From a virus, in IMG/VR virus record IMGVR_UViG_3300030389_003358, positions 1 through 22,212 of that record: a DNA stretch of 22,212 bases. One strand, written 5' to 3'. The notes below the pieces were generated by a model, which was not told the origin of the DNA, searched no databases, and saw only the letters and a list, made by a program, of their open reading frames with translations. This document shows, one piece after another, positions 1 to 18,291 of this stretch (its first letter is position 1; the number at the start of each line of letters is the position of its first letter). The position numbers were made by a program, and so were the translations under genes.

Positions 1-296
1 TCGTCTGAAACTATTTCTACACTCTTACCGTTTTCAGAATAGGTTGTACTATCGTCAGCATAAATGTCTAATGCTCTTGTAATCTCTGGATAGTGGTCCA
101 TCTCTTCATAATCTCTTATTCTATCAAGACGATCAGCACCACCTACTAGTCCTTCACCATAAAGACTTTGTGATGCTTTCTGAAAACTATCAAAGGCTCT
201 TTTCTGTGCATTACTGCCTGGCCGTTCTGTTGGGACTTTATACTGTGCAGAACCACCACGTAGTAATCTTCTCAGTATGTCAAACCTATCTGCCAT
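1..296 (-). CDS. gp20: Portal vertex protein, N-terminal fragment (T4 gp20-like)
   Basis: The gene starts with ATG at 294-296 and runs off the left edge of the window, so only about 98 N-terminal residues are visible. I translated it by hand; it opens MADRFDILRRLLRGG and contains MDHYPEITRALDIYADD. That acidic 'MDxYPEIxxALDIYADxxT' segment is characteristic of T4-type portal proteins, the dodecameric ring at the head vertex through which DNA is packaged and ejected. It lies directly downstream of the XhlA-like gene and the large terminase, so three packaging-region genes are consecutive. The identification rests on this one conserved block and on gene context. Full length and C-terminus cannot be judged here. 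Confidence 0.85.
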   Translation of the reverse strand, partial: MADRFDILRRLLRGGSAQYKVPTERPGSNAQKRAFDSFQKASQSLYGEGLVGGADRLDRIRDYEEMDHYPEITRALDIYADDSTTYSENGKSVEIVSD

Positions 297-302
297 TATT
301 CA

Positions 303-515
303 CTATCCTTGTTGTGAGAAAAATAAAACTATACCTAATACCACAGGAATCAAACCAGCAATTCCACCCCAAATACTTGCCTTTACTTTTAGGGTAGCAA
401 TCTCTACTTGAATGCTTGTGAGTTTGTCTTCTATCGTTTTAAAATCAGAGTCATGTGCATCTAATTTGTTGATAACCATTTTTTGATACTGCTCCCAACC
501 ATTTAGATCAGCCAT
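303..515 (-). CDS. Small XhlA-like membrane protein (holin-like)
   Basis: This is a 70-residue protein with a polar, heptad-like N-terminal half (about residues 10-45, likely coiled coil) and a single hydrophobic segment at about 48-66 (IWGGIAGLIPVVLGIVLFF), followed by a short polar tail. That layout matches the haemolysin XhlA family, small membrane-anchored phage proteins often found next to lysis genes. Its ATG at 513-515 lies inside the last codons of the terminase gene (13-bp overlap), so translation is probably coupled. A lysis role is inferred from architecture only. It could equally be an unrelated single-pass membrane protein lodged between terminase and portal. Confidence 0.6.
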   Translation of the reverse strand: MADLNGWEQYQKMVINKLDAHDSDFKTIEDKLTSIQVEIATLKVKASIWGGIAGLIPVVLGIVLFFSQQG

Positions 516-2158
516 CTCATGCTCTCTTTCTGACCGTTGCCGACATCAAATGTAAATTCACTGTCATTGTTATTGTTTTGATTCCCATAAACACCATACT
601 CAAAAGGTGTATTATTAAAATTGAGGCCCGAAAGCATTTCTTTCGTCACCTCTTCATTTTGAGAATTAAACTTCAAAGTTGTGTTTCTTACATACATTCC
701 CATTGATAAGGACATAACTAGATCATCATTATAACTTGACAGTGCTTCTGGTTTCCCGTTATGAAATACAAATGTCTCTAACTCAGCAATGGTTCTCTTT
801 GAATGTAAGGTAAAATCGTGTGTTCTTAAATCTTCTTCCATACGTGCAATACACGCTGGTCTACTCTTCATACTCATAGTAAAGCCAGGCACTGCATTTT
901 TTGGTACATTGTAAATATCATATTGTAATTGATTAGCGTTACTTTCATGTATTTTTGTTAGGTCTTTAATCGTCCAATACATATTCTTGTATTCCATCTC
1001 TAATATTTTCATAACAACATGATGACCCATAGAAGCATTTTCAACTACGATGTAAGCGTTGTTGTATTGAACAGCAGTGTTATGTATAAGATGAGAATAA
1101 GCATCAGTGTTTACTTTACCCTTATACTCTGCAACTTGTTCATAGTTTTCTATATCTATAACATGAAAGGCAGAATAGTCTTTTCCATCGCCACGAGAAA
1201 CGTCAGCAGAAATAAGATATTCTTTTGTGTAGTCGGGATATTTCCAAATCCATAAACCTTTATCAACCCAAGTCTTTTCTTCGGGTTCTCTTACAAATGG
1301 TCTAAAACCATCATCAGCGGGCTCTTCTTCAGTGGGGTGTTCTTCATACCATTGTAATGCTTTTACACTCACAACATTGTTACCCGATTGTAGAAAGTCA
1401 CAATCGTGTTCCTGTGCAAATGCTTGTTCACCTATTTTTCTTTTTTCTAATCTACCCCATTCAGCATCTCTGTCGGGGTGAAGATTCCACGGCAGTCTTA
1501 TTGGATTGAATGAGATTGTAGCATTACCAACTTTTTCTGTAGTCCCTGCCTCTGCCTCAATGTATGTTTTGTGGAACCAATTACCAATACCGTTTGGTGA
1601 AGACAATACAATACAATCACCACCAGTAGATAGTGTAGGTTGAGCAGCAACCCAAATAGTATCCATAGCTTTTATAAAAGCTGCCTCATCAATAATCAAT
1701 AAACTAAGTGCCTCTGAACGAGCAGCATCTTTTGAGTTTGAACCTGTAGCACCAGCTTTTATTTTACTACCGTTTTCTAATTCAATACTCTGTCTATTGT
1801 CAACTAGTAAATTACTTTTCAAAAAGTCTGGCACTTCTTCTAAGAACACTCTTACCTTATCAACTAAGTTTGTTGCTGTATCTCTCTTTGTAGCAAGGAT
1901 AAAGATTTCTTTGTCTTTGAAAAAGTTAGCCATCCATGCGGCGTAAGCTGCACACAAAGTACTAATACCTAATTGTCTGGCTTTCAGAATGACGTTGTAT
2001 GATTTGTCTAAAAACTCATTGAGTGTTTCTTCTTGGAAGTCGTATAACTCAAATGGCATCAATCCCTTCTTTGGGTGTCTTACTCTGCCATAAGTTTTGA
2101 AAAAGTATATAGGGTCTTTCCTACACTTAATGTATTCTTTTAGTTCTTCTTCTGTCAT
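503..2158 (-). CDS. terL: Terminase large subunit (T4 gp17-like packaging ATPase/nuclease)
   Basis: This 551-residue protein powers DNA translocation into the prohead and cuts the concatemer. The N-terminal ATPase domain shows the phage-type Walker A variant ARQLGIST at residues 60-67, a Walker B segment LLIIDEAA at about 153-160 and the coupling motif LSSPNG near 185-190. The C-terminal RNase H-like nuclease domain is marked by LISADVSRGDGKDYSAF, with the first acidic residue, then by VVENASMG and by YNDDLVMSLSMG, with the late acidic pair. Length is within the usual range for gp17-type proteins (about 550-610). It starts at ATG 2156-2158 and its last codons overlap the XhlA-like gene. All key motifs look intact. 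Confidence 0.95.
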   Translation of the reverse strand: MTEEELKEYIKCRKDPIYFFKTYGRVRHPKKGLMPFELYDFQEETLNEFLDKSYNVILKARQLGISTLCAAYAAWMANFFKDKEIFILATKRDTATNLVDKVRVFLEEVPDFLKSNLLVDNRQSIELENGSKIKAGATGSNSKDAARSEALSLLIIDEAAFIKAMDTIWVAAQPTLSTGGDCIVLSSPNGIGNWFHKTYIEAEAGTTEKVGNATISFNPIRLPWNLHPDRDAEWGRLEKRKIGEQAFAQEHDCDFLQSGNNVVSVKALQWYEEHPTEEEPADDGFRPFVREPEEKTWVDKGLWIWKYPDYTKEYLISADVSRGDGKDYSAFHVIDIENYEQVAEYKGKVNTDAYSHLIHNTAVQYNNAYIVVENASMGHHVVMKILEMEYKNMYWTIKDLTKIHESNANQLQYDIYNVPKNAVPGFTMSMKSRPACIARMEEDLRTHDFTLHSKRTIAELETFVFHNGKPEALSSYNDDLVMSLSMGMYVRNTTLKFNSQNEEVTKEMLSGLNFNNTPFEYGVYGNQNNNNDSEFTFDVGNGQKESMRWLI

Positions 2159-2734: not shown

Positions 2735-3787
2735 TTATGACCTTTTCTTTCTTCCTGCACAATGAGCCTTCTGGCTAAATCCTTTTGGATTATTGCAATC
2801 AATGCTCCTCTTATACTTCTGACTCCAACCCTCGTTCTTCTTCTTTGTTTTCTTTTTCATTCCATTTATAAAAGAACGATAAACACCAGCAGCTGACTTC
2901 TTACCCATTTCTCTTGCTCTTTGTTCCATTGCAACTGCCGCTTGTATTTTATGAGCGTGTGACTTACCACTACCTTTTATTTTTCTAACAGATGCTTCGG
3001 CATCTTTTACTGTGGCAAACTTCAAACCCTTGATTGTTCCTTTAGGATTTTCGTCTGTGTATAAATCACTGTGACTAGATGATTGTCTGTGTTGTCCTTT
3101 TTTTCTTGGAATCCTTTTCGCTTCGTCTAAACCATCTTCATCATTTTTTGGTGGGTTTAGACGTTCAAGTTTATTTATTTTATACTCTGGTTCTAACTCA
3201 TGTTCTAATTCATTACGAGACAATTTTGTATTTATGAAGGCGACAACTTGATAGTCTAAAACGCCTGAACCAATCTCTGCTACCTTCACAGGTGTAAGCT
3301 TATCTATCTTAATATTTTTAAGAGCAAAATGAAACTTCAGCTCATCAATTTTATCTTTTCTATTTTTCTCTGTTGTAAATGGGATTGATAACACTACCTT
3401 ATACTTTCTAACCTCTTCTTCAACATCTTCATACAACGACTTCATTATTGCCCATGAAACAGATGAAACAGATGAAACAGAAGATGCAGATAGTGCAGAA
3501 GATAAACTCATCTCTGCAACAAATGTGTCGGGATAGTCGTTGTATAGACCATACTGTGCAATGATCTTGTCAACATCTTTTTGATCTGATGCTCCTCTTA
3601 CAGAGGCAACTATTTTCTTCATAGCACCTTGACCGGCACCAAGAGAGGCCAATCTTACAGTAATCATTGATAACCACTTTTGTAGCGCTTTGTTTGAGCC
3701 ACCACTATTAGCAAGTTCAACATACTTACTTATTAGGTATTCAATGTTATTGTCATCACCCTCTTTTATAATTGAAGATAGCTTCAT
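2735..3787 (-). CDS. MKL-leader protein of 350 residues with basic C-terminal modules
   Basis: It starts MKLSSIIKEG, the shared leader of this cluster, with a possible prohead-protease site I7-K8-E9|G10. The N-terminal third is helical and contains a Ser/Val repeat (SVSSVSSVS). A middle region of about 130 residues looks alpha/beta (KYKVVLSIPFTTEK...). A second perfect (I/L)xE|A-type site, LDE|AKRIP, precedes a very basic C-terminus. That part contains HSDLYTDENPKGTIKG, a KSHAHKIQAAVAMEQRA helix and a final Cys-containing module, CNNPKGFSQKAHCAGRKK. As far as I recall, the last two occur in many marine phage proteins of unknown role. The start overlaps the previous stop by one base (TAATG). 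I infer a packaged internal head protein, probably processed, with a nucleic-acid-binding tail. Confidence 0.8.
   Translation of the reverse strand: MKLSSIIKEGDDNNIEYLISKYVELANSGGSNKALQKWLSMITVRLASLGAGQGAMKKIVASVRGASDQKDVDKIIAQYGLYNDYPDTFVAEMSLSSALSASSVSSVSSVSWAIMKSLYEDVEEEVRKYKVVLSIPFTTEKNRKDKIDELKFHFALKNIKIDKLTPVKVAEIGSGVLDYQVVAFINTKLSRNELEHELEPEYKINKLERLNPPKNDEDGLDEAKRIPRKKGQHRQSSSHSDLYTDENPKGTIKGLKFATVKDAEASVRKIKGSGKSHAHKIQAAVAMEQRAREMGKKSAAGVYRSFINGMKKKTKKKNEGWSQKYKRSIDCNNPKGFSQKAHCAGRKKRS
3454..3480. repeat. Three tandem 9-bp units (ATGAAACAG)
   Basis: The 9-mer ATGAAACAG occurs three times head to tail. Read on the coding (minus) strand it gives in-frame Ser-Val-Ser units inside the 350-residue MKL protein, so copy-number change would keep the frame. 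Confidence 0.85.
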
Positions 3788-4056
3788 TATTTATCTGCCT
3801 CTACTGACTTCAACACTTCTTGTAAGTCTGCTAGTATATCAAACATTTCGGGCCCTTGATCGTAATTACCACTCTTCTTTGTGCGGCCGTGTCGTAGCTT
3901 TAAAGCAGATTGTATTTGTTTTATAGTTTTGTCAATACCTTTTGAGTATCCTTCGTAAGCCTGTTTAGCTTGTGGATTAGGAAGTGGTGCGGCCTTCTTT
4001 TTCATTGGAGGCTTTCTGCCTGTTGGTGACTTATATCTTACTTCTGTTAATTTCAT
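3787..4056 (-). CDS. MKL-leader small basic protein, paralogue of the 6313-6570 gene
   Basis: This 89-residue protein opens MKLTEVRYKSPTG. It has the MKL(S/T) start of the cluster but lacks the hydrophobic-x-Glu cleavage position seen in its neighbours. After a Pro/Lys-rich linker, the C-terminal half (IDKTIKQIQSALKLRHGRTK, then a K-x-G-x-Y-x-Q stretch and FDILADLQEVL) aligns with the C-terminal half of the 85-residue protein at 6313-6570 (IKKIEAALKTRESRTRKKG, FYEQ, FDIQEHLGAAL). The two look like diverged duplicates of a helical hairpin. Function is unknown. Its stop overlaps the ATG of the 350-residue gene by one base, which suggests coupled translation. Confidence 0.75.
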   Translation of the reverse strand: MKLTEVRYKSPTGRKPPMKKKAAPLPNPQAKQAYEGYSKGIDKTIKQIQSALKLRHGRTKKSGNYDQGPEMFDILADLQEVLKSVEADK

Positions 4057-4073
4057 TTTATTTTCCTCATAGG

Positions 4074-4097
4074 GTGGGGCGCCCGTAGACGCCCCAC
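4074..4097. terminator. Strong GC stem-loop (terminator or processing hairpin)
   Basis: GTGGGGCG at 4074-4081 pairs perfectly with CGCCCCAC at 4090-4097 around an 8-base loop. In a region this AT-rich an 8-bp, nearly all-GC stem is striking. It lies between the stop of the 109-residue membrane protein and the next gene. No clear U-run follows it on the minus strand, so it may be a weak attenuator or an mRNA-stabilising 3' hairpin rather than a classic terminator. Confidence 0.5.
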
Positions 4098-4105
4098 ATT
4101 GTTAT

Positions 4106-4435
4106 TTACTTAAGCTCTTCAGCAGCTTTCTTTATGTCACCGAATGTTTCGGCAACTTTCTTTGAACCACCTGCAAGTAGCCCAGCAGTTAGGACTTGAC
4201 CTAACATTGTTGCATCACCATTGAATAGCATTGCAACTAAATCTACTGGAACCTCTTTGGCAATAAGAAAAGAAACACCCCAAGAAATGGGAACCTTCAA
4301 TCCCTTACCACCAACATACTTTGCATAATATTTCCAATTGAACAAGGTAGCTAAACCTCTCTCAATCACGACAGAGAGAGCGATAAGTAATGCAAATACA
4401 CTAGCTACGTTCTCCAATACGGGTCCAAACTCCAT
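4106..4435 (-). CDS. Small hydrophobic membrane protein
   Basis: This 109-residue protein starts at ATG 4433-4435 with a GGAG site upstream. It has a long hydrophobic N-terminal segment at about residues 8-32 (VASVFALLIALSVVIERGLA), amphipathic hydrophobic stretches around 48-58 and 64-72, a Gly/Ala-rich segment (VLTAGLLAGG) and a charged helical tail (KKVAETFGDIKKAAEELK). It could be a holin-like or head-membrane protein; I know no family for it. It follows the intergenic TATAAATAT element and precedes a strong GC hairpin, so it may be a separately controlled cistron inside the internal-protein cluster. Confidence 0.7.
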   Translation of the reverse strand: MEFGPVLENVASVFALLIALSVVIERGLATLFNWKYYAKYVGGKGLKVPISWGVSFLIAKEVPVDLVAMLFNGDATMLGQVLTAGLLAGGSKKVAETFGDIKKAAEELK

Positions 4436-4479
4436 AAATACTCTCCGTAATAATGATAATAATTTACATAAACCCTTTG

Positions 4480-4488
4480 TATAAATAT
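4480..4488. promoter_or_regulatory. TATAAATAT intergenic motif (copy 1 of 3)
   Basis: The 9-mer lies in the 74-base gap between the 86-residue and 109-residue genes, 45 bases upstream of the latter's ATG. The same 9-mer appears in two other gaps (10049, 14860). It contains the T4 late-promoter core TATAAATA, but on the plus strand; read with the genes it is ATATTTATA. It may be a promoter element of altered form or orientation. Confidence 0.35.
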
Positions 4489-4509
4489 TATTTTATATCA
4501 ATAAGAAAC

Positions 4510-4770
4510 CTATGCCATTAGATCAATGTTCTGGCCTTGAGTCACAAACTCTAAAGTTTTATTCATACTCTCTTGAGTTTTCTTGATGTCATTAATGCCA
4601 CCTAAAGGAGTGTCTGTTCGCATTGTTGGATTAATCATAGACCCAAGTTTCCATTCGGGACTAGTGATTCCTTTACCCTTTACTGGATCGGCGAGTTGAC
4701 CATTTGTCATTCCATAAAGTTCTACTGGAATAACAGAAGATACTGGTGGTGGTGGTTTACTAACAATCAT
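4510..4770 (-). CDS. Hypothetical protein, 86 residues
   Basis: I use the ATG at 4768-4770, which has GGAG eight bases upstream, rather than a TTG 33 bases earlier. The protein opens MIVSKPPPPVSSVIPVELYG and is Pro-, Gly- and Thr-rich with few predicted secondary elements until a short C-terminal helix (KKTQESMNKTLEFV). The ATG lies 11 bases inside the end of the cupin-like gene, so the two are probably co-translated. It lacks the MKL leader. I do not recognise it. The Pro-rich N-terminus and lack of hydrophobic segments suggest a small soluble or structural linker protein. Confidence 0.65.
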   Translation of the reverse strand: MIVSKPPPPVSSVIPVELYGMTNGQLADPVKGKGITSPEWKLGSMINPTMRTDTPLGGINDIKKTQESMNKTLEFVTQGQNIDLMA

Positions 4771-5035
4771 TATCAGTTCTCCAAGATACCACAAGGTCTT
4801 CAAATCCTTTGATGACCCTATGAAAAGTTCCTTTTGGTATAAAGTATTTACTACCTTCTACAAGTGTAGTAGGCATTTCTTCATCCATCTGCAAACACCA
4901 ACCTCCAGACTTTATTACTTCTATCAGCCTGTCTTCTTTATCACGATGCCAAACTAGTTCGTCTTCAGAAACCTCATTAGAGAAAGTTCTTACTATCTTT
5001 TCTCCTTCTTTAATTTGTTGATAAGGACTTACCAA
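4760..5035 (-). CDS. Small cupin-like protein (TTG start)
   Basis: This is a 91-residue protein with a likely single cupin-like barrel. It shows VRTFSNEVSEDELVWHRDKE, a glycine turn (KSGGWCLQMDEE), then EGSKYFIPKGTFHRVIKG, where the 'F-I-P-x-G-x-x-H-R' strand is typical of small metal-binding cupins. Candidate metal ligands are the His in VWHRD and the His in GTFHR, with acidic residues between. The only in-frame start is TTG at 5033-5035, overlapping the upstream stop. The true start might lie slightly further in, because a stronger AAGGAG sequence occurs inside the first codons. N-terminal IKE|G also resembles a prohead-protease site. Enzymatic activity is not established. Confidence 0.6.
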   Translation of the reverse strand: MVSPYQQIKEGEKIVRTFSNEVSEDELVWHRDKEDRLIEVIKSGGWCLQMDEEMPTTLVEGSKYFIPKGTFHRVIKGFEDLVVSWRTDNDC

Positions 5036-5604
5036 AATACACCACGTGCTCCAGATAATCCAAGTGACTTGGCAAATCTTGGTAATCTACATGACCAGTA
5101 ACCTGCTTTTGTTTTATCTTTTTTTGTGGGACAGTTATGTCTATCACTAAATGCCTTACGAGCCTTTGGGTCTTTTAGTTTCACGGCTAGTTTACCGCCG
5201 CCACTCTTAGCACCAAACTCTACTCGTTTTACTTTTTTAGTTTTGGGATTCATAACATAGACATAGAACTTTTTACTACCACCCCTCTTAGGTTTGTTTA
5301 AGTCAACCTTTCTACCTTGATACTCTGCCTCATTCATCTCAACCATGATGGGACAATCCAACGGCACTCTCATTCCCTCACACTCACCAAACGTCCCTAT
5401 ATCGGTTTCTAACAGTTCTTGATCAACATAGGATAATTCACCCAACTTACCCTCGTTATAAAGCCTACGGGCTTCTCTGAGTGTAGCAAAGTAACTCTCA
5501 CTATACATTCTAAAAATACTTTCAGATAGTGGGACTTTGTTTTCTCTATGATAGTCAAGAGCCTCGTTTATTGTTTCTTCTTTTATAATGTCTGTTAGTT
5601 TCAT
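5029..5604 (-). CDS. MKL-leader protein with Cys/Lys-rich C-terminal module, 191 residues
   Basis: It opens MKLTDIIKEETINEALDYH. Two possible gp21-type cleavage sites lie within fifteen residues: I7-K8-E9|E10 and I12-N13-E14|A15, the second a full match to (I/L)xE|A. The middle is helical and acidic (FATLREARRLYNEGKLGELS). The C-terminal ~85 residues are very basic and carry KKFYVYVMNPKTKKVKRVEF and a conserved-looking module, RHNCPTKKDKTKAGYWSCRL, ending at LGLSGARGVFW. I recall the same C-terminal module on many T4-like marine phage proteins of unknown function. Its ATG overlaps the upstream stop (ATGA). I infer a packaged, DNA-associated internal head protein. Confidence 0.8.
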   Translation of the reverse strand: MKLTDIIKEETINEALDYHRENKVPLSESIFRMYSESYFATLREARRLYNEGKLGELSYVDQELLETDIGTFGECEGMRVPLDCPIMVEMNEAEYQGRKVDLNKPKRGGSKKFYVYVMNPKTKKVKRVEFGAKSGGGKLAVKLKDPKARKAFSDRHNCPTKKDKTKAGYWSCRLPRFAKSLGLSGARGVFW

Positions 5605-5996
5605 TTAAAATACTTTCTTAAAATTTCTCTATCAACTTTAGGCATTTGTTTTTTGTTTGATGCATTTTTAGGATTGTTCCAAATGTCAGCCAATTGAGAT
5701 TTCAATTTACTTGTAATACCAACAGCACGCCAACCACCCTTTTCAAAACCCTGTTTATCTTTGTCTTGTTTACTCCAACTACCCGTCTGAAAATCTTGAA
5801 AGTAATCTGTATCTACATTAAAGATAACACCAGACCATCTTTCCCGAGCACCCATACTAATCTTTGAGGTGGCAAGAAAAATGTCACGTTTCTTTCCTTT
5901 GTAAAACCATGCTTGATTTGATTTAGTAACTGGTTTTGCAGATGATGGGTCTACACCACGACCAACTTTCTCTACTAGTAATTCACTTAGTTTCAT
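5601..5996 (-). CDS. MKL-leader protein, 131 residues
   Basis: It begins MKLSELLVEKVGRG, with the leader and a possible cut at L7-V8-E9|K10. The mature part would be mostly beta/alpha with many aromatics (AWFYKGKKRDIFLATSKI, YFQDFQTGSWSKQDKDKQ) and a basic helical C-terminus (KVDREILRKYFK). I do not recognise a family. It has no cysteines and no membrane segment, so it is likely a soluble protein of about 14 kDa after processing. The start at ATG 5994-5996 is fixed by the shared leader. It follows the 97-residue MKL gene after a short gap and overlaps the next MKL gene by four bases. Confidence 0.75.
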   Translation of the reverse strand: MKLSELLVEKVGRGVDPSSAKPVTKSNQAWFYKGKKRDIFLATSKISMGARERWSGVIFNVDTDYFQDFQTGSWSKQDKDKQGFEKGGWRAVGITSKLKSQLADIWNNPKNASNKKQMPKVDREILRKYFK

Positions 5997-6005
5997 TATT
6001 ATTCC

Positions 6006-6299
6006 CTATGAGATGTAAGCGTTTAACTCAAATTGATTTTTCATACCGTAGACTTGGAAGACTAGCATATTCTTTACTGGCTTTCCTCTTCTTGTCAAAC
6101 CGACTTTGAATTCATGTGTCTTACCGACACTAGGACGAGCACGATTATAACGACCACCCATTACAACTTGTGATTGAAAATCATCTTGGTCTACCTCATA
6201 ACCTTTCTTCGTTGCCATCTTTACAGCTTCTTGAGCAGCAGAAGAAAATGATTTATGATAAATCTTATAGTTTTCGTTTAGTACTTTTGATAATTTCAT
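6006..6299 (-). CDS. MKL-leader protein, 97 residues
   Basis: It begins MKLSKVLNENYKIY, with a possible cut at L7-N8-E9|N10. The remainder looks like a compact alpha/beta domain: a helix SSAAQEAVKMATKKGYEVD, then a basic turn GGRYNRARPSVGKTHEFKVG and two strands (KPVKNMLVFQVYGM, FELNAYIS). I recall similar 'K-S-F-x-x-A-x-x-x-A-V-x-x-A-x-x-K-G-Y' and 'YGM...ELNAYI' small proteins in marine myoviruses, all unannotated. Whether it binds nucleic acid or a host target is unknown. Context and leader suggest packaging inside the head. Confidence 0.75.
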   Translation of the reverse strand: MKLSKVLNENYKIYHKSFSSAAQEAVKMATKKGYEVDQDDFQSQVVMGGRYNRARPSVGKTHEFKVGLTRRGKPVKNMLVFQVYGMKNQFELNAYIS

Positions 6300-6312
6300 T
6301 TTGTCTCTCTAC

Positions 6313-6570
6313 TTAGTCAAGTTGTATCGGCGATTTTATAACAGCTAATGCAGCGCCCAAATGCTCTTGTATGTCAAAAAGTTGTTGGCTCTGCTCGTAG
6401 AAACCTTTTTTACGTGTCCGAGATTCTCTTGTCTTCAAAGCTGCCTCTATCTTCTTTATCTCTCTCTTGATGTCTTTCATCATCTTATCATATTCTTTTA
6501 TGTCTGTATCAGTTCCAGAAGTGGCTGACCCGCGCTTCTTCACTTCATCCATCGCTTTATTTAGTTTCAT
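6313..6570 (-). CDS. MKL-leader helical protein, paralogue of the 3787-4056 gene
   Basis: This 85-residue protein begins MKLNKAMDEVKKRG, with a possible cut at M7-D8-E9|V10. The body is a likely helical hairpin: KEYDKMMKDIKREIKKIEAA, a basic RESRTRKKGFYEQ turn and FDIQEHLGAALAVIK. This half aligns with residues ~37-85 of the 3787-4056 product: both share I-x-x-I-x-x-A-L-K-x-R, R-T-x-K-x-G, Y-x-Q and F-D-I in the same order. I infer a gene duplication within the cluster. The mature function is unknown; the basic turn could contact DNA. Confidence 0.75.
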   Translation of the reverse strand: MKLNKAMDEVKKRGSATSGTDTDIKEYDKMMKDIKREIKKIEAALKTRESRTRKKGFYEQSQQLFDIQEHLGAALAVIKSPIQLD

Positions 6571-6579
6571 TTTGTCTCT

Positions 6580-6888
6580 CTACTTTTGTAGTATTGCCTT
6601 TTTCTTAGGTTTACCCTTACTACCGTAATGTTTACGTTTTCTTGCAACTGCATTCTTCTTTTCTTTCTTACTCATACGATCAGCGACAGACTTCTTACGA
6701 CACTTTGGATAAGCACGTTGTCCACCTTTACGGGACTTCTTACCAGCAGATGCTCCACAAGGCGGGTGACTACCGTCTTTATTAGTACGACTAATGTCAA
6801 CCCACTTCTCTCTGAACCACTTGCCTAAACTTCCCTTAGTCTTTTCATCCATCTGTTCAAGTGTTTCTAAAACTTCACTTAGTTTCAT
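6580..6888 (-). CDS. MKL-leader, Lys/Cys-rich small protein, 102 residues
   Basis: It begins MKLSEVLETLEQMDE, with V6-L7-E8|T9 as the likely cleavage position. The rest is extremely basic and includes KWFREKWVDISRTNKDG, then HPPCGASAGKKSRKGGQRAY, PKCRKKSVADRMSKKEKK and a Lys-rich end. The two cysteines sit in 'HPPCG' and 'YPKCR'. I recall a similar KWFxEKWVDISR...HPPCG...YPKCR unit in marine phage and giant-virus proteins of unknown role. High charge and cysteines suggest nucleic-acid binding, perhaps with one metal. It is a good candidate for a DNA-packaged internal protein. Confidence 0.75.
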   Translation of the reverse strand: MKLSEVLETLEQMDEKTKGSLGKWFREKWVDISRTNKDGSHPPCGASAGKKSRKGGQRAYPKCRKKSVADRMSKKEKKNAVARKRKHYGSKGKPKKKAILQK

Positions 6889-6898
6889 AGTCTATCTC

Positions 6899-7228
6899 TT
6901 ATGAACCGGCGATACCCTTTGAGCCAGGAATATCATCTCTCTGTGTGGCATCTCTGTTGACAGCTTTCATAATCTTCTTATCAATATCTTTCAGTTGACT
7001 AAAGACTTGTTTAGCAACATTGTTGTCAATGTATCCCATCTTACCCAACAACTTAACATCATTCTGAACATCAGTAAGACGATAGCCAACAGCCTTTGTT
7101 CCAAACAGAAGACCCTTTAGTTTATTGTGTTCTCTTCTACCACCCTTCAACTTGGGCATACGTTTTGCTTCTTCAAGTACACCAGCCATCTTAACTAACT
7201 GGTCAAACTGTTCTTTCAAATCTTCCAT
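6899..7228 (-). CDS. Small protein with a candidate prohead-protease site, 109 residues
   Basis: It starts at ATG 7226-7228, within four bases of the upstream kinase stop. It lacks MKL. Its first twenty residues form an amphipathic helix (MEDLKEQFDQLVKMAGVLEE) ending in L18-E19-E20|A21, a perfect (L/I)xE|A prohead-protease consensus. The site is followed by AKRMPKLKGGRREHNKLKG. The same 'xEAKRxPxxKG' string follows the internal LDE|A site of the 350-residue protein. The remaining part is basic and helical (VQNDVKLLGKMGYIDNNVAK). I infer another processed head protein with a different leader. Function is unknown. Confidence 0.75.
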   Translation of the reverse strand: MEDLKEQFDQLVKMAGVLEEAKRMPKLKGGRREHNKLKGLLFGTKAVGYRLTDVQNDVKLLGKMGYIDNNVAKQVFSQLKDIDKKIMKAVNRDATQRDDIPGSKGIAGS

Positions 7229-7229
7229 G

Positions 7230-7949
7230 TTACTTTCCTCTCTGAGATTTCATCCAATCTTTGGCGATCTTACTTTTGATTGGCTTACCAACAAATTGTT
7301 TTATCATTCTGTTTACGACCCTACCGAAAGTAGGAACGCCTGATTTTATAACTACTGTGTCACTATTATCTACGACTATCATGTTTCCACGGAATAACCC
7401 TTGAAACTTTCCTATGTTCTTCTGAACAGACTTCCAAATAGATGTTACTAGTTTCTCTGGTAGTACTCTATCACGACCAGCATTTCTTTCTAAAGCAATC
7501 TCTAATGAAGTGTTTACAAAAATCATGTAGCAATCGTAACCTAACTTTCTAAGCTCAACAACTCTCTTCTTAATTTTATCATAGTCATCACCAGTACCAT
7601 CAATGAGTAACCCTAAACGACCATGTATGTATAATTGTTCTTTTGCTTTTGCTACTCTCTTTGCTTTCTCTCTTGGGGAATCAGCACCTGTTGTTACTTT
7701 CTGGAATTGTTTGTCTGACATCTTACCCAAAGTTTTTGGGTCAATACCTTGTTTCTTTAGAAAGTATTCAAACTCTGGATCTGAGTTTACAATCTTTAAT
7801 CCAGCAGGTGAGAAAGAACTTGCCTTTGGTATAGCAAAAATTTCACTACCTACAAAGGACTTACCACTGCCTGGCCCACCAGCTAAGAACACAGCTTTGA
7901 AAATGCCAGGGTCGTTTACGCCTTCATTAAATAAATCACCAAGTTTCAT
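7230..7949 (-). CDS. MKL-leader P-loop kinase (zeta-toxin/polynucleotide-kinase-like)
   Basis: I use ATG 7947-7949 with GGAG just upstream, not the TTG twelve bases earlier. It begins MKLGDLFNEGVND, giving a possible cut at F7-N8-E9|G10. A kinase-type P-loop follows at once: VFLAGGPGSGKSFVG, Walker A at 24-31. Later comes LLIDGTGDD (~115-122), a typical acceptor-side motif of zeta-type and AAA_33 kinases, then YDCYMIFVNTSLEIALERN and GRDRVLP, an arginine-rich lid-like region. The 239-residue length fits a single-domain kinase. The substrate is unknown: polynucleotides or UDP-sugars are the family precedents. A capsid-leader on an enzyme suggests delivery into the host at infection. Confidence 0.8.
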   Translation of the reverse strand: MKLGDLFNEGVNDPGIFKAVFLAGGPGSGKSFVGSEIFAIPKASSFSPAGLKIVNSDPEFEYFLKKQGIDPKTLGKMSDKQFQKVTTGADSPREKAKRVAKAKEQLYIHGRLGLLIDGTGDDYDKIKKRVVELRKLGYDCYMIFVNTSLEIALERNAGRDRVLPEKLVTSIWKSVQKNIGKFQGLFRGNMIVVDNSDTVVIKSGVPTFGRVVNRMIKQFVGKPIKSKIAKDWMKSQRGK

Positions 7950-7950
7950 T

Positions 7951-8493
7951 TTATACTCCAACTATCTTTTTTAATTTTGTTATATTAGTCACAACTCTTC
8001 TCTTTATCTTATCTGGCAAATTTTCAGTAGAAGATAAGAGAGAATCAATAGCATTAACTATTCTATCGTCAATTTTAACTGCCCTTTTTCTAATGTTAGC
8101 AACAGTATTCCAACCCATGATAGCATCAATAATATTTATCGGACCTGTTATTGCAGAAAACGTCACGGCATCTAGTTTTAAAAGAAAATCAATTAATTCT
8201 TCTTTGCTAACTCTCTTTTGAAGTAAATCTTTTAGTTTTACCCTTGCTTCTCTGTCTCCACCGTGCGCCTTGAAGGCATAATACATAACTTCACCCATGT
8301 ACCTGCCTGCTTTTGATAAAATAGACAATAAACCCTTACCACTACCAGCTTTTATGTTTAAACCAGCTTTTTTAGCCACTCTTATTAGTCCACCACCAAC
8401 ATTTTCATTCAATTGGTTCGGTGTCATAGACATAAACAAGGCAATTTCTAAAATTTGTTGTCTATCGTCATCAAAAACATTACTTAGTTTCAT
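7951..8493 (-). CDS. MKL-leader helical protein, 180 residues
   Basis: It begins MKLSNVFDDDRQQI. Asp replaces Glu at position 9 of the leader, but a clean (I/L)xE site occurs later at LNE|NVGG (about residue 30), so cleavage could fall there. The body is almost entirely helical: LIRVAKKAGLNIKAG, YMGEVMYYAFKAHGGDREAR, EELIDFLLKLDAVTFSAITG, then a basic C-terminal helix region. A hydrophobic Gly/Ile stretch (TFSAITGPINIIDAIMGW) might touch a membrane. I recall similar 'DFLLKLDxxTxxxxTGPIxxIDAxxGW' proteins in marine T4-like phages, without known roles. It ends directly before the kinase. Confidence 0.75.
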   Translation of the reverse strand: MKLSNVFDDDRQQILEIALFMSMTPNQLNENVGGGLIRVAKKAGLNIKAGSGKGLLSILSKAGRYMGEVMYYAFKAHGGDREARVKLKDLLQKRVSKEELIDFLLKLDAVTFSAITGPINIIDAIMGWNTVANIRKRAVKIDDRIVNAIDSLLSSTENLPDKIKRRVVTNITKLKKIVGV

Positions 8494-8925
8494 TTATTTC
8501 TTCTTCCCAAAGTTTTTAACGTCTTTGTATAGTATACCAAATAAAATTGTACTCGTCCACATAATAACGCCATAGACTGCTTCATGTTGCCAAAATTCTG
8601 TCCACTCTCTACCGCCAGGAAAACCCACAATCTTCCAAACCTCATACAAAATAGTAACAGAGATAGCAGCTGCACCACTCCAATAACCAGCTTTCTTGGC
8701 CTCTTCTTTGGCCATTTGATTTTTAGTTAGTGTAACTACATCTTTACCTAATTGTTTGTTCTCTGCCTTCAAAGACCTATTATCTGCTGCAGATGCCTTT
8801 GCAGCTGAGTTCGCTACTTTAGCACTAGTTTTATAATTGTTAATTTCTTTTCTGGCTCTTTCGTACCACTCCTTCATTTCACTTGTTGTACGTATCTTAT
8901 TATACGGCGGATAATTATATGGCAT
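8494..8925 (-). CDS. Coiled-coil plus two-TM membrane protein (holin-like)
   Basis: This 143-residue protein starts at ATG 8923-8925 with GGAG upstream. Residues ~15-80 form a charged, Ala/Lys/Asn-rich heptad region (coiled coil). Two hydrophobic segments follow: SGAAAISVTILYEVWKIVGF (about 83-102) and AVYGVIMWTSTILFGILY (about 116-133). A short basic tail (KDVKNFGKKK) ends the protein. The N-out/C-in guess is not testable here. The layout is compatible with a holin or a membrane-inserting head or tail-tube protein. It interrupts the MKL series and its stop abuts the next MKL start. Confidence 0.7.
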   Translation of the reverse strand: MPYNYPPYNKIRTTSEMKEWYERARKEINNYKTSAKVANSAAKASAADNRSLKAENKQLGKDVVTLTKNQMAKEEAKKAGYWSGAAAISVTILYEVWKIVGFPGGREWTEFWQHEAVYGVIMWTSTILFGILYKDVKNFGKKK

Positions 8926-8977
8926 TCTTTCTCTCCACTAAAATTTGTGTTATCAAACAACCTTTAGCAGAAACCTT

Positions 8978-8994
8978 AGACACCAACTGTGTCT
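8978..8994. other. Weak stem-loop in the 8926-9004 gap
   Basis: AGACAC at 8978-8983 pairs with GTGTCT at 8989-8994 around a 5-base loop. No U-run follows on the minus strand, so it is at best a weak attenuator. Just upstream (8997-9004) the minus strand reads AATAAATA, one base from the T4 late-promoter core. Confidence 0.3.
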
Positions 8995-9004
8995 CTTATT
9001 TATT

Positions 9005-9424
9005 TCATCCCTTTGTCTTTCTCCAAGTCCCACCCTTTGATTTGTAATTCTTTGCTGCCCAAGCATTGGCATAAGCAGATGGGTAAACCTTGAATTTTCT
9101 TTTAGCGGCTGCAATAGATGCTGCCCATTTCTTTTTATCGTTAGGTACATTCTTTTCAGTGAATAGTTTTATCTCGGCCATGTCTTTGCGAGTAATCTTT
9201 GAGTGTCTACCCTCAACAATACCATCTTTACCATCCATGTAATTATAAACAGATTGTAAGTAGTCCATTGACTTGGTAATCTTTGATTGCACCCAAGATG
9301 GTAACTCATCTTCACTATCTATTCTATCTCTCAACATTGTAGCATAGTCAATGGCCCTTTCTAACTGACCTCTGGCCATTCCACCTTCTTCGTGACTATC
9401 CTCAACTACTTTCTTAAGTTTCAT
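9005..9424 (-). CDS. MKL-leader protein with 'ARGQL...WVQSKITKS' domain, 139 residues
   Basis: I use ATG 9422-9424, seven bases after a GGAG, rather than an upstream GTG. It begins MKLKKVVEDSHEEGG, with V6-V7-E8|D9 as a candidate cut. Two modules follow. The first is helical: MARGQLERAIDYATMLRDRI, then ELPSWVQSKITKSMDYLQSV. I recall this as a widespread phage head-associated motif of unknown role. The second is basic and C-terminal (KKWAASIAAAKRKFKVYPSA, then YKSKGGTWRK), a 'YPSAYANAW..KxYKxxGG' unit also common in large viruses. It is the first of the MKL series in transcription order and is preceded by a 70-residue membrane protein. Confidence 0.8.
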   Translation of the reverse strand: MKLKKVVEDSHEEGGMARGQLERAIDYATMLRDRIDSEDELPSWVQSKITKSMDYLQSVYNYMDGKDGIVEGRHSKITRKDMAEIKLFTEKNVPNDKKKWAASIAAAKRKFKVYPSAYANAWAAKNYKSKGGTWRKTKG

Positions 9425-17832: not shown

Positions 17833-18291
17833 TTATAAACTCATTCTCTCAACAATACTAGTAGTGCTAGCTCCTTTAATCAACGGAGCTGTTGTTACCT
17901 TACCACCATAAGATTCTACTAAATCTTGTCCAACTATTCTATCTTTTTCTGCACAAGGTTTTGTGCTGTAGTCCGCGCCTTTCACTAATATATTTGGTTT
18001 GATTTTTTGTAACACAGGTAAAACACTTTTTGTATCAAAGACAACAACATAATCTATCCATCTTATTGATGATAGGATTGCTGTTCTATCTTCTTGTTTC
18101 ATTACTGGTCTTGTTGGACCTTTAAGTTCTCTTATTGACTCGTCGCTATTGACAGCAACAATGGTTGGTAAAAGTAAAGAGTAGTTACCACAAAACTCAA
18201 AAAGAGAAACGTGGCCTCTATGTATAATGTCAAAACATCCATTAGTAAAAACCCCACCTGTTAAAGCAAAGTCATCTACATGGTATACATT
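17833..18291 (-). CDS. RfaE2/HldE-C-like nucleotidyltransferase, start unresolved
   Basis: The first in-frame ATG, at 18100-18102, is too far in: the same open frame continues upstream and encodes the catalytic front of the family, FTNGCFDIIHRGHVSLFEFC, with an intact HRGH motif, then VAVNSDESIRELKGPTRP. The rest is typical: EDRTAILSSIRWIDYVVVFD, KIKPNILVKGADYS, VESYGGKVTTAPLIKG and ASTTSIVERM. The open frame runs from an in-frame TGA at 18325-18327 with no ATG, GTG or TTG before HRGH. The coordinate 18291 marks the likely N-terminus only; CTG at 18313-18315 or a frameshift from ATG 18288-18290 are alternatives. It would make ADP- or CDP-activated sugars. Confidence 0.8.
   Translation of the reverse strand, partial: NVYHVDDFALTGGVFTNGCFDIIHRGHVSLFEFCGNYSLLLPTIVAVNSDESIRELKGPTRPVMKQEDRTAILSSIRWIDYVVVFDTKSVLPVLQKIKPNILVKGADYSTKPCAEKDRIVGQDLVESYGGKVTTAPLIKGASTTSIVERMSL

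Follow-up and report, generated by a model that had tools for sequence, protein, structure and literature searches.

Gene content of the window

The window, meaning the whole stretch of DNA analysed, is an entire virus record of 22,212 bases, probably a genome fragment, and its minus strand carries nearly all of the genes. Along this strand we observed the start of a portal gene, a large terminase gene, a cluster of genes whose products begin MKL, and then more replication and accessory genes. The adjacent terminase and portal genes named in the original prediction were both found:

3..296, minus strand: T4-like portal protein, N-terminal 98 residues, cut by the record end (PF07230, E=6e-6)
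503..2158, minus strand: T4-like large terminase

A cytidylyltransferase-like gene without an obvious ATG near its 5' end was also observed at 17833-18258 on the minus strand (PF01467, 2.5e-17). All ten MKL starts predicted between positions 2735 and 9424 are present there, all on the minus strand (arrows mark candidate cleavage positions):

2735..3787, minus strand: 350 aa, pI 9.7, MKLSSIIKE↓G (leader 3761-3787)
3787..4056, minus strand: 89 aa, pI 9.9, MKLTEVRYK, an outlier leader with only LTE at residues 3-5
5029..5604, minus strand: 191 aa, pI 9.5, MKLTDIIKE↓E (leader 5578-5604)
5601..5996, minus strand: 131 aa, pI 10.0, MKLSELLVE↓K (leader 5970-5996)
6006..6299, minus strand: 97 aa, pI 9.9, MKLSKVLNE↓N (leader 6273-6299)
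6313..6570, minus strand: 85 aa, pI 9.5, MKLNKAMDE↓V (leader 6544-6570)
6580..6888, minus strand: 102 aa, pI 10.4, MKLSEVLE↓T; weak DUF5872 match, under the Pfam cut-off
7230..7949, minus strand: zeta-toxin-like P-loop kinase, 239 aa, pI 9.9, MKLGDLFNE↓G (PF06414, 1.8e-9; leader 7923-7949)
7951..8493, minus strand: 180 aa, pI 9.9, MKLSNVFDD
9005..9424, minus strand: 139 aa, pI 9.7, MKLKKVVE↓D

MKL starts were found in 10 of the 17 genes inside 2735-9424 and in 0 of 26 outside (Fisher, 1e-5). For the genes starting at 7949 and 9424, a longer non-ATG reading also appears in the mechanical list of open reading frames; a good ribosome site goes with the ATG reading, and relatives keep this same start. 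As predicted, the protein bodies are unrelated save for one duplicated pair, 3787-4056 and 6313-6570, which form one family. The ten proteins have basic pI values throughout, from 9.5 to 10.4, compared to a median of 6.2 for the other window genes (p=1e-4). Across the lineage, families with the leader have a median length of 100 aa and a median pI of 9.8, versus 5.9 (p=2e-5). A structure model of the 2735-3787 protein (pLDDT 68) contained a ferredoxin-like middle domain whose PDB matches were weak, none with E below 0.001, and the AlphaFold model of the 7951-8493 protein was poor (pLDDT 53).

The leader is conserved as residues, not as DNA

Nine of the leaders had been predicted to place hydrophobic-x-(E/D) at residues 6-9; this is exact for eight, and in MKLSEVLET the motif is shifted by one, with E at residue 8. 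The tenth, MKLTEVRYK, is an outlier to hydrophobic-hydrophobic-x-(E/D) at these positions. Eight leaders end in hydrophobic-x-E (hxE) and one, at 7951-8493, in D. Residue 4 is mostly polar, and residues 6-7 form an aliphatic pair. When residues 4-15 were shuffled, a mean of 0.19 out of 10 fitted the pattern versus the 8 out of 10 observed, a number never reached in 20,000 trials. Hydrophobic-hydrophobic-x-(E/D) at residues 6-9 was present in 0 of the 32 non-MKL genes of the window.

Codons within the leader vary (CTA, TTA and CTT for Leu3, GAA and GAG for Glu), and the DNA upstream of the MKL genes has little in common beyond a purine-rich ribosome site. The residues rather than the DNA are thus conserved. 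A DNA-level repeat or translation signal as the source of the leaders was ruled out by the variable codons and unshared upstream DNA, chance likeness by the shuffles and counts, and a signal peptide by the length of the hydrophobic stretch, which is only two or three residues.

Recurrence in related contigs

Related contigs yielded 75 nonredundant MKL N-termini in 38 families, with the consensus M-K-L-x-(E/D/N)-(V/I/L/A)-(L/I)-x-E; 54 of them have E, D or N as the fifth residue. The strict pattern was found in 32 of these 75, a set that includes plain nonleaders such as a glycosyltransferase starting MKLEDIGVVMLSHG, compared to 1.5 expected and to 10 of 407 non-MKL N-termini. In nine other T4-like genomes, of which parts were sampled (about 890 genes), no MKL start followed by hhxE was seen. 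For family 18, apparent homologs lacking a leader were ruled out, as an in-frame leader (V/MKLK..LIREG) lies upstream.

Two further types of start were observed. Nine of the 75 N-termini begin MKLxEA (for example L012 1346 and L016 7242); here LxE↓A at residues 3-5 would itself fit the protease motif, and these starts are possibly a shorter class of leader. A second, longer leader, approximately MKIxKxxLxxLIxExLxE, is borne by genes that neighbour the prohead protease in several lineages, and a relative of the window's 6313-6570 gene, L012 16863, has a leader of this type in place of MKL. The genes with the longer leader are as follows:

L012 16435-17123
L183 5155-5400
L184 10121-10936
L001 3278-4343

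Prohead protease and capsid protein in relatives

The original prediction implied a matching prohead protease. The closest long relatives do encode a gp21-type enzyme; in the window none was seen, the record breaking off within the portal gene, so that our PF03420 search of the window covers a fragment ending there. The relatives G001 and G002, whose terminases are 86 and 85% identical to that of the window, carry a gene for a prohead protease of the Peptidase_S77 family (PF03420, E 1e-26 to 1e-27). This protease aligns with T4 gp21, including the His of GELxHP and the Ser of SSRG, which are the catalytic residues in T4. More genes with MKL or MKI leaders directly follow the protease gene in relatives.

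The capsid protein was read at the position aligned with the T4 gp23 cut. It has QMLNE↓E, QLISE↓A, QLIDE↓A or SFLTE↓A there; the motif is MLNE↓E in the lineage of the window and LISE↓A, LIDE↓A, IVSE↓A or FMTE↓S in others.

Leader exchange and internal sites

Many marine T4-like phages encode relatives of the 7230-7949 kinase. From EG(V/I)(N/Y)DP onward the body does not vary, and the preceding residues differ by phage: EG follows MKLGDLFN or MKLADLFN in the lineage, and MKSFQQYLD, MLSFKTYLE or MKTFAELQ in other phages.

Similar motifs were found inside the proteins. In the 5029-5604 protein, MNE↓A (5329-5337) immediately precedes an EYQG domain (phrog_7595), and in the 9005-9424 protein, IVE↓G (9212-9220) precedes an ITRK domain, which directly follows the leader in L016 and L027. 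An hxE motif precedes the EYQG domain in all 12 distinct contexts, N-terminal or internal, and stands directly before the DUF5872 domain in 0 of 7 contexts. From their sequences, the hxE motifs before the ITRK and EYQG domains would be either protease sites or cases in which E is the conserved start of the domain. The 2735-3787 protein may have an internal site at LDE↓A (3122-3130), within a low-confidence linker that precedes its basic C-terminal part, and in the 7951-8493 protein a second candidate, LNE↓(N/G/A) at residue 30 (8404-8412), is conserved.

In phage S-SM2, SSM2_108 begins MKTLKQFLKE and ends with the C-terminal domain of the window's 350-aa protein. The C-terminal part of that protein is also 71% identical over 101 aa to SSM2_109 (T4-GC 119), which joins in one chain relatives of the 2735-3787 and 9005-9424 proteins and, weakly, of the 6580-6888 protein. 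GC119 relatives were detected in virions of S-SCSM1 (42662-44215) and S-CREM2 (ORF160 and ORF137), as copies lacking those segments that best resemble the window's proteins.

We tentatively propose, at somewhat under even odds, that marine T4-like phages have a modular cargo system in which small basic domains come in two formats and one protease releases many of them. In one format, each domain would be encoded by a single gene with a lineage-specific head tag; in the other, domains would be joined in longer proteins (S-SM2 SSM2_109, Melnitz_18) with the protease site of the tag between them. One protease would then free many packaged proteins out of both formats.

Virion proteomes of cyanophages

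We know of no cultured member of the window's lineage. For cyanophage S-CREM2, a virion proteome has been published (PMC10665884). Using a pattern based on the T4 leader and written after some of the detected proteins had been seen, we found that 5 of 6 matching S-CREM2 genes were virion detected, compared to 21 of 185 other nonstructural ORFs (p=1.8e-4). The five encode a SAM hydrolase, ORF13, an APH-like kinase, ORF136 and a cytidylyltransferase. With the same pattern fixed beforehand, 1 of 4 matches in the first 200 kb of S-SCSM1 was virion detected, which is not significant (p=0.24). A protein beginning MKTFKQFMSE beside the S-SCSM1 terminase (L214 44215-44535) is not listed among the virion proteins, although a protein this small could be missed.

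The virion cytidylyltransferase of S-SM1 (GC190) starts MKKFSAFLNE↓A and the virion NMNAT of S-SCSM1 starts MKSFLQFLKE↓A. In S-CRM01, the genes adjoining the kinase bear the same kind of leader, and the Cas9-like virion protein of S-CREM2 has an internal version, FASFMAE↓A. We further observed that the Cas9-like ORF12 of S-CREM2 and kinase neighbours in related phages have an SRW..W start and an internal hydrophobic-x-E↓A near residue 23-26:

L201 7704-10313 (S-CREM2 ORF12)
L205 4922-5473
L206 4743-6971
L207 4638-6389
L208 4716-6944

The S-CREM2 authors could not exclude copurification (PMC10665884), and for NMNAT, kinase, SAM hydrolase and Cas9-like proteins, authors of cyanophage virion proteomes were unable to decide between cargo and contamination. 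Our observation that these proteins carry a leader resembling a capsid-targeting sequence bears on this question.

Interpretation of the shared leader

We consider the shared start, M-K-L-x-(E/D)-(V/I/L)-(L/I)-x-E, to be a lineage-specific capsid-targeting propeptide, with a probability of about 0.78. Of the original prediction, the reading as a head-targeting, protease-removed propeptide is best supported, by the protease of the relatives, the hxE site of the capsid protein and the S-CREM2 proteomics; the likeness to T4 stopped short of identity with the leader of the T4 internal proteins (IPs). Further points in its favour are the leader counts, the basic bodies, the change of leader on a constant kinase body and the hxE before the EYQG domain. 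Counting against a propeptide are the lack of Y4/F7-type aromatics, the single D end, the one leader without hxE at residues 6-9, the nonsignificant S-SCSM1 result and the possible copurification in S-CREM2. By analogy, we infer capsid targeting, cleavage, packaging and ejection in the window's phage: the leader would direct each small basic protein to the capsid, a gp21-type protease would remove it after the E, and the basic proteins would be packaged and ejected.

In T4, gp21 cuts after L/I-x-E and the IP propeptides target the core; Asp at the leader end permits targeting but blocks cutting, such that the two functions are separable (PMC9026906). This separability, together with the D end in one of the ten genes and the conservation of positions 3, 5, 6 and 7 about as strongly as the E, would fit a leader that targets the prohead core or another head part and stays uncut, its hydrophobic-x-E end being part of a binding helix. 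We regard this as unlikely, since the same motif stands at the cleavage position of the capsid protein and also precedes the same domains where they are internal. Distinctly less probable is a localisation or interaction tag for a target outside the head, such as the host membrane, a tail part or a shared chaperone. A short hydrophobic and acidic N-terminal motif could bind many partners; however, this one is too short for a signal peptide, the genes adjoin those for terminase, portal and prohead protease, and the analogous S-CREM2 leaders track with virion detection.

We give hardly any weight to chance or an effect at the level of translation, whether through a preference for lysine-rich starts behind the ribosome site or through copying of the leaders as DNA. 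The neighbouring genes 6006-6299 and 6313-6570 do have a short ribosome-site sequence in common. The counts nonetheless already contradict this explanation: shuffling never gave the observed number and MKL with hhxE is missing from the other T4-like genes sampled, while the residues are kept despite varying synonymous codons.

As a capsid-targeting propeptide, the tag may label head cargo that the phage passes to its host, by analogy with the similarly tagged proteins detected in virions of related ocean phages. It provides a rule by which such candidate cargo, possibly injected as infection begins, can be picked out from ocean phage sequences. No prior report of such leaders in marine T4-like phages was found in the literature searched, which left most subscription journals outside.

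Comparison with known systems

In phiKZ and SPN3US, a protease related to gp21 cleaves large sets of ejected head proteins after Glu (PMC5694885, PMC9026906). These phages belong to another group and differ from the window in that several of their propeptides exceed 100 residues. In S-CREM2, S-SM1, S-SCSM1 and S-CRM01, T4-like cyanophages from marine and fresh water, a leader is likewise found on unrelated nonstructural proteins, several of them virion detected. Unlike those of the window, the cyanophage leaders have the aromatic T4-like form M-K-x-F-x-x-F-L-x-E, ending FLxE, FMxE or similar, and their genome neighbourhoods differ.

The nearest T4 match in style is the gp24 propeptide, MAKINELLRE, with K-(L/I)-x-E-L-L-x-E; gp24 is a shell vertex protein rather than an internal one. 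With T4 IPI, IPII and IPIII (ipII and ipIII begin MKTYQEFIAE), the window has in common about ten N-terminal residues with an MK start and a hydrophobic-x-E end, a leader common to otherwise diverse small basic proteins and, in its relatives, a gp21-type protease adjoining portal and capsid genes. In contrast to the three IPs of T4, there are ten leader genes, for putatively packaged proteins, in one cassette. The window's leader has nine residues instead of ten, and Leu3 and aliphatics at 6-7 instead of Y4 and F7. Aromatics at residues 4 and 7 matter for targeting by the T4 IP leader. Since they are absent here, we do not file the window's leader as a T4 capsid-targeting sequence but describe it as probably working like one.
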